A stretch of 64,000 nucleotides of DNA from Xanthomonas sp. CFBP 8443 (GTDB lineage: Bacteria; Pseudomonadota; Gammaproteobacteria; Xanthomonadales; Xanthomonadaceae): the NCBI RefSeq assembly GCF_025666195.1, contig NZ_CP102592.1:744001-808000 (forward strand), given 5' to 3'. Both the position numbers and the translations under genes were made by a program. A model generated the notes under the pieces. That model searched no databases. It worked only from the letters and a program-made list of their open reading frames with translations, and was not told the origin of the DNA. Position 1 is the first letter of the stretch. Each line of letters begins with the position of its first letter. Positions 50,758 through 52,780 of this stretch are shown here, piece by piece.

Positions 50758-51208
50758 GTGGCGACCGGCGTCGAGGGGGCAGTTGCCGATACCGTCGCGG
50801 GTCAGAGTCCGCTCATCAGTCCCGACTGTTTCCAAAGCCGGATAGCTGGATGCTTCGTCGTCGCGGCTGAAGCCGCTCCTACAGGAAGCAAACGGCCGAC
50901 TCGCCAGGCGCACTGTAGGAGCGGCTTCAGCCGCGACAGGTCGCCGAAGTCGCTGCGATGCCTCTTTTTGGGTCCATCCGTCACGATCGCTCCATGAAGC
51001 CCGGCAATCGGACGCTCCGCTCGTCGCGACTGAAGTTGCTCCCACAAGGACTTGCACCAAGCTTGCTGGGTGCACTGTGGGAGGGACTTCAGTCCCGACT
51101 GCTTCCGAAGTCGGATAGCTGGGCGGCTTCGTTCGTCGCGGCTGAAGCCGCTCCTACAGGGAGCAAACGGCCGACTCGCCAGGTGCACTGTAGATACCGT
51201 CTTCCCGT

Positions 51209-52180
51209 CTAACAGGCAATGGCCTTTTGAGGATCGAAGGGCGTGTTTGATTTGAGGACGCCGTAGGCAAGATGCAGCAACTTGCGCATGGCGGCGCAGA
51301 CGATTTGCTTGCCGGCTTTGCCGCGTTCGCGCAGGCGCTGCTTCAGCGCACGGACGACCGGATTGTGGGTCATGGCGACCAGGGCCGGCATGTACAGGCC
51401 CGCGCGCAGCCGCGGGGAGCCGGTGCGGGAGATGCAGACCTGGCCCTGGCGCTTGCCGGACTCCTGCAGCCGGGGGTTGAGCCCGGCAAAGGCGGTCACC
51501 GCCGAGGCGTGGGCGAAGCGCTCCACATTGCCAAGTTCGGCCAGCATCAACGCCGCGCTGGTGTCGGCGATCCCATCGATGCTCACCAGCAGGTCGCGCT
51601 GCCCGCGCAAGGTCGGGTCCTGGTCGATCTGGTCGTCGATGGCCCGTTCAATCTGCGCGATGCGCGCCTGCAACTGGCCGATGTTCTCCAGGAGCGAGTC
51701 GCGCACCACCGGCGCGGCCACGTCCAGGCGGTTGCGCTCCATCTGCAGCATTTGCAGCAGGTCGTCCCGGCGCCGCACCAGCGCCTTGAGCTGCTTGAGC
51801 GCCGGCGGGTCGGGCTGCCAGGGCCGCAGCTGCGCCGCATGGCGCTGGCCGTAGCTGGCGATCAGCTTGGCATCGCTGCGGTCGGTCTTGACCCGGGTCA
51901 GCTGGCTGCGTGCATACAGCGCCATCTGCGCTGGGTTGAGTACGCACACGCGGTAGCCCAACCCATGCACGAACTCGGCTAGCGCCTCGTGGTAGGTGCC
52001 GGTGGCTTCCATCACGATCCAGCTGTCCGCCTGCGCGTGCGTCTGCAGCCACGCGTGCAGGGCCTGGAAGCCCTTCGGATCGTTGGGAAGCTTGGCCTTG
52101 GTGCGGTACTTGCCGTTGGCCAGGTCGATGGCCAGATCGAAACTGCGCTTGGCGACGTCAATGCCGACGACTGGGGACAT
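51209..52180 (-). CDS. IS110-family transposase (RuvC-like DEDD, bridge-RNA type)
   Basis: A 323-residue recombinase. The N-terminal DEDD domain shows VVGIDVAKRSFDLA (first Asp, residue 8), VMEATGTYHEAL (Glu) and KTDRSDAKLIASYG (Asp pair). After a coiled linker the Tnp C-terminal domain (transposase_20) has LLVSIDGIADTSAALMLAELG, TAFAGLNPRLQESGKR and the catalytic serine region of SRTGSPRLRAGLYMPAL. All parts are present and in frame. ATG 52180 is the family's usual start. Confidence 0.96.
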   Translation of the reverse strand: MSPVVGIDVAKRSFDLAIDLANGKYRTKAKLPNDPKGFQALHAWLQTHAQADSWIVMEATGTYHEALAEFVHGLGYRVCVLNPAQMALYARSQLTRVKTDRSDAKLIASYGQRHAAQLRPWQPDPPALKQLKALVRRRDDLLQMLQMERNRLDVAAPVVRDSLLENIGQLQARIAQIERAIDDQIDQDPTLRGQRDLLVSIDGIADTSAALMLAELGNVERFAHASAVTAFAGLNPRLQESGKRQGQVCISRTGSPRLRAGLYMPALVAMTHNPVVRALKQRLRERGKAGKQIVCAAMRKLLHLAYGVLKSNTPFDPQKAIAC

Positions 52181-52214
52181 AAGGACTCCTCCATCGGATG
52201 GGTGATCACGATCA

Positions 52215-52400
52215 TCGCTGCGCCCGGTCCTGCCTTGTGGATGCGAGTTCACGCCAGCGGCGGACTCTGGATACCGTGCGGACACCACAGGGCCAGCAGA
52301 TGGAGGGCGGGAGCCGATCTACAGCACAAGCTCGAAGCTTCAGGAGCGACTGGACTTCCCGCACCTCCCCCGATGATCAGTCGGAAGACATAACGCCTTC
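52215..52400 (-). ncRNA. Candidate bridge RNA of the IS110 element
   Basis: The leader upstream of the transposase, read on the minus strand, has four guide-like segments in the known order. First CGCTCCT (52348-52342), equal to the left target GCCGCTCCT; then, after an AAGCTTCGAGCTT hairpin, CTGTAG (52324-52319), complementary to the right target CTACAG; then ACGGTAT (52277-52271), equal to the left donor end ACGGTAT-CT; then ACAAG (52238-52234), complementary to the right donor end CTTGT. The outer limits are estimates. Function is inferred from the IS110 mechanism. Confidence 0.7.
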
Positions 52401-52780
52401 AGGGGCGCCATGTCCAGATACAAGGAGCGGCTTCAGCCGCGACAGGTTGCCGAAGCCGCTGCGATATCGATCTTTTTGGGCCCATCTGTCGCGATCGCTT
52501 CATGAGGCCTGGCAATCGGACGGCTCCGCTCGTCGCGACTGAAGTCGCTCCCACAAGGAATTGCGGCGAGCCTGTTGGTGCACTGTGGGAGGGACTTCAG
52601 TCCCGACTGCTTTCGAGGTCGGATAGCTGGATGGCTTCGTTCGTCGCGGCTGAAGCCGCTCCTACAGAAGCTCGCGGGCTATGCAGGAGCTCGCGACGAC
52701 GAGCTGGGTGCACTGTAGGAGGGGCTTCAGCTCCGACATGTCGCCGGGGCCGCTGAGTTGCCTGCAAAGCAAACGGGGCG

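Follow-up and report, generated by a model that had tools for sequence, protein, structure and literature searches.

Does the leader of an IS110-family transposase gene encode an RNA that directs the element to its landing sites, as an initial annotation proposed on finding four short segments that resemble the element's ends and target? The window, i.e. the whole stretch of 64,000 nucleotides that was analysed, comprises bases 744001–808000 of the source genome (G000; Xanthomonas, one contig of 5.24 Mb) and contains an IS110-family insertion sequence of 1231 bp on the minus strand (52424–51194). The closest named protein cluster, at 95%, is that of Xanthomonas graminis. As judged from sequence comparison, the leader of the element very probably gives rise to a guide RNA able to pair with the element's own ends and with a repeated landing site. 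The element and its immediate surroundings comprise the following features:

51194–52424, minus strand: whole IS110-family element, 1231 bp including one CT core at the left end; same extent in the G000 copies, absent from the orthologous region L163
51209–52180, minus strand: transposase (recombinase), 323 aa, PF01548 and PF02371
51194–51201, minus strand: right end, with the left donor ACGGTAT (51200–51194)
51209–51219, minus strand: TTGCCT of the right end, a presumed −35-like half-promoter; TATCTT would be completed only with the left-end CTT in a circle
52425–52444, minus strand: interrupted REP, left half (left target ...GCCGCTC)
51182–51193, minus strand: interrupted REP, right half (core CT and right target, CTACAGTGCACC)

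The recombinase matched both family domains well above the cut-offs (PF01548, 115.5 bits with a cut-off of 29; PF02371, 75.4 bits with a cut-off of 21.3). Among solved structures, it matched two distinct sequences, ISCro4 (9t56_A, 223.9 bits) and IS621 (8wt6_A, 222.0 bits), in both cases over residues 5–318. The catalytic residues D11, E60, D102, D105, and S241 of IS621 are conserved as D8, E58, D100, D103, and S241. Seven copies of the element occur in G000: five are identical, one is 97.7% identical, and one carries a 1-bp frameshift. In the frameshifted copy (L007/L008, G000:C1:830788–831755) the shift lies in the transposase, while ends and target are unchanged. All copies have 1231 bp in common (1230 in the frameshifted one) with identical start and stop bases and lie in the same REP position, indicating that the flanks assigned by the initial annotation are the real ends.

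The seven copies interrupt one REP site, GCCGCTC/CT/ACA, and read ...GAAGCCGCTC, CT, element, CTACA(G or A), with CTACAA rather than CTACAG at three of the seven sites. The CT core is common to target and donor. That the target is a REP is indicated by the frequency of GCCGCTCCTACA, which occurs 357 times in G000 compared to 4 times for the pattern read backwards, and by that of CGCTCCTACAG, found five times in the window where 0.02 are expected. Dense REP clusters of two types (GCCGCTCCTACA and GTCGCTCCCACA) flank the element at 50800–51190 and 52425–52780 of the window. In genome G571, the corresponding orthologous region between genes (L163) lacks the element and contains the REP unbroken, CACTGTAGGAGCGGCTTCAGCCGCGAC on the plus strand of the window. 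This comparison covered 14 loci of relatives (L157–L170), of which L163 alone aligned in one piece over the joined flanks; the other 13, whose alignments were broken or ran from REP to REP, were set aside.

The guides were read by the IS621 scheme as given in the available text of PMC11208160 and PMC11208158. The four segments lie on the minus strand in the order described earlier: CGCTCCT within 52350–52342, CTGTAG at 52324–52319, the ACGGTAT segment within 52277–52270, and ACAAG within 52242–52234. The small hairpin said to separate the first two, AAGCTTCGAGCTT, was found at 52340–52328. Order and alternation of sense are those of IS621, the left target guide (LTG) and left donor guide (LDG) being sense to the left sides and the right target guide (RTG) and right donor guide (RDG) antisense to the right sides. 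The guides are thus present as annotated, while their lengths had been understated, since the IS621 scheme gives a longer LTG, LDG, and RDG. The predicted RNA comprises the following parts, with pairing given for the relatives described below:

52210–52384, minus strand: predicted bridge RNA body, with 5′ stem-loop, target-binding loop, and donor-binding loop; from covariance model R1, RNA ends predicted
52370–52384, minus strand: 5′ stem-loop CCGACTGATCATCGG; helix 2, 100% of cells paired, two pairs with double changes
52357–52368, minus strand: stem of the target-binding loop, 5′ arm; helix 3, 89.7% of cells paired, four pairs with double changes
52342–52350, minus strand: left target guide GTCGCTCCT; 9/9 with GCCGCTC-CT, covarying with the flank in relatives
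52328–52340, minus strand: hairpin between the target guides; helix 4, 99% of cells paired, two pairs with double changes
52319–52324, minus strand: right target guide CTGTAG, complement of CTACAG
52302–52312, minus strand: stem of the target-binding loop, 3′ arm; helix 3
52290–52297, minus strand: stem of the donor-binding loop, 5′ arm; helix 5, 100% of cells paired, three pairs with double changes
52270–52277, minus strand: left donor guide ACGGTATC; covarying in L107 and L116
52245–52267, minus strand: hairpin between the donor guides; helix 7, 100% of cells paired, two pairs with double changes
52234–52242, minus strand: right donor guide ATCCACAAG; 2-nt bulge, as in IS621 ATTTGCAAG
52217–52230, minus strand: stem of the donor-binding loop, 3′ arm; helices 5 and 6

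The LTG (9 nt) matches its target at all nine positions by eight Watson-Crick pairs and one rU:dG wobble, and the RTG, CUGUAG, has 6 nt. The LDG matches the right end ACGGTAT plus the core C at 8/8 positions, and the RDG, AUCCACAAG, matches CTTGTAT at 7/7 around a 2-nt bulge. With respect to the handshake bases, 81, 82, and 166 pair and 167 is unpaired; in L046, base 166 does not track a changed target. When the 236-nt leader was shuffled 20,000 times with its dinucleotides preserved, no shuffle contained the four segments in order; multiplying the single-segment shuffle frequencies gives 2e-7. With this guide, targets of the type GTCGCTCCTACAG (perfect) and GCCGCTCCTACAG (wobble) are predicted to be used and GTCGCTCCCACAG, which has no CT core, to be left unused. 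REPs of the type GTCGCTCCCACA, present 236 times in G000, offer the first seven bases in Watson-Crick match with the guide and have the core CC; GTCGCTCCTACA is present 20 times. None of the seven G000 insertions lies in the CC-core type (a chance of 0.03 if all 613 sites are equal). This avoidance fits a requirement for the CT core but does not prove it, because the right flank of the CC type differs as well.

The minimum-energy fold of the single sequence was inconspicuous (z +0.53; 141 of 200 shuffles folded at least as well). From 26 aligned leaders, RNAalifold predicted 31 pairs, 15 of them with compensatory changes. In the seven named helices, 88.8% of cells pair compared to 81.7% in shuffles, double-sided changes affect 16 of 32 named pairs (10.7 in shuffles), and 84 cells show double changes (26.4 ± 4.5 in shuffles), values to be read with the tool's warning that related sequences can beat shuffles without structure. 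Pairing fell to 29–50% when the partner was slid by 1–3 columns. The number of further pair types in these leaders did not exceed that in shuffles (31 and 31.3, respectively), and the outermost 5′ stem as drawn (helix 1), which pairs in 43% of cells, is unsupported. Both internal loops enclose a hairpin and show compensatory changes.

A covariance model (R1) was built from 17 leaders of Pseudomonas, Stutzerimonas, Pseudomonadaceae, and Rhodoferax, none of them from Xanthomonadaceae. In the window, its sole match at E up to 1 was 52384–52210 (131.4 bits, E 1e-31), located in the left end of the element and wholly upstream of the CDS start at 52180. The model also matched IS621 (42.8 bits, E 2.8e-9) and a second IS110 element of G000 (43.8 bits, E 1.6e-9), all E-values being rough owing to a short calibration. 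It recovered 15 of 16 sources, and the one missed, L113, is a truncated locus. Hence the conserved two-loop fold that the initial annotation called for is present, as indicated by compensatory changes in 26 relatives and by the model match. An Rfam search of the whole window gave nothing at the gathering threshold. A match to RF00223, obtained at 52100–52450 with E up to 5, was rejected as chance level (9 bits compared to a gathering score of 40).

Relatives of the element were collected from 135 loci, resulting in 74 readings; the search pattern required both ends, so that truncated and most distant loci were lost. All readings except L105, a 1316-bp composite, were used, and together with 19 further copies the remaining 73 yielded 92 insertions. 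In four of the 73 (L018, L019, L020, and L033), the right flank was limited to CTAC. In 89 of the 92 insertions, the LTG pairs at nine of nine positions with its own left flank and core if wobble is allowed, and in 37 Watson-Crick pairs suffice for this. Wobble is needed in L015 and wherever the Xanthomonas guide GTCGCTC meets a GCCGCTC site. The right flank starts with CTAC in 91 of the 92, L121 having CTGC. Among the 73 readings, 11 distinct 7-base LTGs occur. With one row for each, the match to the own flank was 6.82 of 7 positions compared to 3.85 ± 0.47 after shuffling, and none of 20,000 shuffles scored as high. Homologues at other targets therefore carry changed guides as a rule; one of them, L035, has the guide unchanged at a different site. 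By fold and by guide covariation, the sequence supports the bridge RNA originally suggested.

The left-target rule is broken in three insertions, L035, L043, and L149. In Pseudomonas mendocina FFL34, L034 and L035 share the guide ATCCACC at the sites ATCCACC and GCGCACC, respectively, and L035, with two mismatches and a wobble, resembles an off-target insertion. The LTG of L043 (Pseudomonas putida W15Oct28) ends in CCG instead of CCT, so that its core base mismatches the element's own CT core. The leader of L034 has the RTG CATAG instead of CGTAG, predicting CTAT where the site reads CTAC; this copy is possibly decaying. A transposase tree of 28 rows required 14 label changes for the 11 guide types, with the bootstrap unsettled and 13 forks open. 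Guide swaps were accordingly trusted among well-supported close relatives only, for example L027 (GTCCACC) beside L034 (ATCCACC), with support of 97/91.

The constancy of the donor ends in the collection carries no weight as evidence because CTTGTATCT and A(C/A)GGTATCT were required for inclusion. Donor variation came from more distant elements. A scan with the strict rule found three of 11 distant loci (L107, L114, and L116) and missed eight; 22 of 1,100 mononucleotide-shuffled control loci matched as well. The left-target match of these three is no evidence either, since the scan demanded a 9/9 match. The donor-guide matches, which were found after the scan, do constitute evidence at the sequence level: L107 has the left donor ACAGTAT with the LDG ACAGTATC and the right donor CTTATAT with the RDG ATGGATAAG, and L116 has the left donor ATGGTAT with the LDG ATGGTATC, i.e. 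the donor guides track the donor ends. Further donor variation is provided by IS621 and by the second IS110 of G000.

These data bear on several other explanations of the leader. It might do no more than regulate the transposase, as a structured 5′ UTR or a source of sRNAs, with the protein itself recognizing REP DNA and the guide matches being functionless. REP targeting was in fact formerly credited to the transposases themselves (available text of PMC1525189), and for ISPpu9 a 244-nt 5′ UTR is described together with two sRNAs that have an effect on expression (available text of PMC8450116). Guide segments that vary with the insertion site among relatives are unexpected of a regulatory UTR, though, and we consider a purely regulatory leader very unlikely; the regulatory and guide roles are not mutually exclusive. 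That the four matches arose by chance in a GC-rich leader has next to no probability: short matches are common (ACAAG alone appears in 6% of shuffles), but the ordered pattern did not appear in shuffles at all, the match recurs over 92 insertions, and the covariation already contradicts chance.

Alternatively, the segment resembling the left target could be flanking DNA captured in past insertions or recombination events. As capture would have it, the LTG is identical in sense to the left flank followed by the core, and in L105 guide DNA does lie beside an element end. Capture does not account for an RTG and an RDG that are antisense, for an LDG that copies the opposite end, or for the placement of the segments within conserved loops, and is further opposed by copies that share one guide at many matching loci (7 in G000, 18 in G006, and 14 in G568), making this origin extremely unlikely. 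In all likelihood, therefore, the leader encodes a bridge RNA of the IS621 type, which would act through a circle, a junction promoter, recombinase binding, and guided insertion into REPs at CT.

By analogy with IS621, from which transcription, protein binding, circle formation, and catalysis are taken over, the element would excise as a circle in which right and left ends meet, and the circle junction would complete a sigma-70-like promoter reading into the leader. The bridge RNA would then bind the DEDD/serine recombinase. In the target-binding loop, the LTG would pair with GCCGCTC-CT on its bottom strand and the RTG with CTACA(G) on its top strand; in the donor-binding loop, LDG and RDG would pair with ACGGTAT-CT-TGTAT at the junction of the circle. 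The element would enter the REP through recombination at the common CT. The leader would thus represent the 'ready' and 'programmed' bridge RNA of the initial annotation. Since the right end carries TTGCCT, 17 bp, and TAT, and the left end starts with CTT, the circle junction would place TTGCCT-17-TATCTT before the leader. Of 34 distinct junctions, 31 contain TTGC-17-TATCTT; in two more the distance to TTGC is greater by one base, and L117 is without TTGC. A promoter rebuilt across the circle junction is described for IS621 (available text of PMC11208160), and the match to the consensus may indicate one in the present element. When the element is integrated, this right end reads outward into the flank.

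The resemblance to IS621 of E. coli extends from the related recombinase (222 bits) to the RNA in the left end, the order, polarity, and lengths of the guides, a bulged RDG (AUUUGCAAG in IS621, locus L155), GTAGAT after the first hairpin, the CT core, a REP target with CTAC, and recognition by the same covariance model. The LTG is GTCGCTCCT here and ATCGGGCCT in IS621, because the REP differs, and the left donor is ACGGTAT instead of ACAGTAT. ISCro4, the best match among solved structures, was compared by its recombinase only. ISPpu9 and ISPpu10 of Pseudomonas putida are IS110 elements with 7/7 copies each in REPs (available text of PMC1525189). They are likened to the present element by description, and relatives from the P. 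putida group (L038–L043) carry the LTG GCCGCTCCT or GCCGCTCCG at the same seven target bases. The IS1111 group (seekRNA elements) has related transposases and RNA-guided targeting; according to the available text of PMC11187229, its RNA region usually lies downstream of tnp, with subterminal inverted repeats of 11–13 bp and a reversed guide order. In contrast, the RNA lies upstream of the transposase here, and such repeats are absent: when the terminal 80 bp of the two ends were compared, no match of at least 11 bp with up to one mismatch was found, the longest perfect match being 7 bp.

Published work (PMC1525189, PMC11208160, PMC11208158, and PMC11187229, in their available text) already covers the insertion of IS110 elements into REPs, bridge RNAs, the covariation of their guides, and the natural redirection of related elements, and the mechanism is known from IS621. 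What is new is a further predicted bridge RNA system of this type, from Xanthomonas; no earlier description of the element was found in the accessible text of the literature searched, which comprised neither subscription papers nor ISfinder. It provides a well-documented bridge RNA from this genus and a natural panel of 11 left target guides within one family, by which the positions that matter, the widening of targeting by wobble, and the avoidance of the guide's own DNA can be tested.

Position 12 of the right target was considered as a sign of steering by the RTG. In Xanthomonas, all 20 sites of RTGs ending in TGTAG have A, and 26 of 35 sites of RTGs ending in CGTAG have G. Over the 88 insertions with a base at this position, A is found in 27 of 28 where the RTG predicts A and G in 43 of 60 where it predicts G. 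For genome-contig loci alone, the counts are 7 A/1 G and 16 G/5 A (two C left out), with a Fisher P of 0.003 that ignores relatedness. The A/G switch was dropped as proof, and steering at this position is not claimed, because the background REPs of Xanthomonas genomes shift in the same direction and enrichment within genomes was not significant (one-sided P of 0.17 in G006 and 0.20 in G568, 0.07 combined). The ratio of GCCGCTCCTACA to GCCGCTCCTACG is 357/2 in G000, 433/13 in G567, and 565/11 in G572, compared to 131/237 in G006, 155/151 in G568, 96/153 in G153, and 16/18 in G569. Either the guide follows the REPs of the host or position 12 is weakly read.

The lineage may represent a natural reprogramming series in which the donor module is fixed and the target module is swapped according to host REPs; we regard this as possible rather than probable. 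As part of this tentative reading, the U at LTG position 2 would read both GCC and GTC, one guide thus serving two REP variants. Self-insertion would need restraint because the DNA encoding the LTG itself copies the left target. None of 47 distinct leaders has C as the second base beyond the LTG core, so that the AC wanted by the RTG is missing from the DNA of the guide itself; this may reflect self-avoidance or merely a constraint of the hairpin. Within the same series, restraint would come mainly from the missing AC and would occasionally be breached, as in L105; if so, such breaches would provide a route for exchanging guide modules. In L105 (G006:C1 near 3587407–3588631), an element lies inside the DNA that encodes the LTG of a sister copy, an apparent self-insertion; upstream, 83 bp of a left end remain. 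A search of 8 genomes gave a single occurrence of the exact 19-base junction. Since the far flank has the form of an ordinary CTAC site, the copies probably recombined with each other later.

The second IS110 of G000 (L009–L013) looks unrelated. It has 1152 bp, five copies, and a transposase of 32% identity, and lies outside the window (G000:C1 3410240, 4142877, 1440279, 98056, and 1192756). All five copies occupy the same REP at its first CT, two bases upstream of that used by the main element, with the left flanks GAAGCCG (three), AAAGCCG (one), and GAAGTCG (one), followed by CT and CCTACA. Reading its guides by eye, the LTG CAGGCCGCT matches GAAGCCGCT at 8/9 positions with one wobble (7/9 for L012), the RTG GTAGGAG matches CTCCTAC at 7/7, the LDG CAGTTGCC scores 7/8, and the RDG ACCTACAAG matches CTTGTGT at 7/7, with C facing G13 in place of the U facing A13 in the main family. 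Two IS110 elements at neighbouring CT cores of the same REP in one genome constitute a natural register test.
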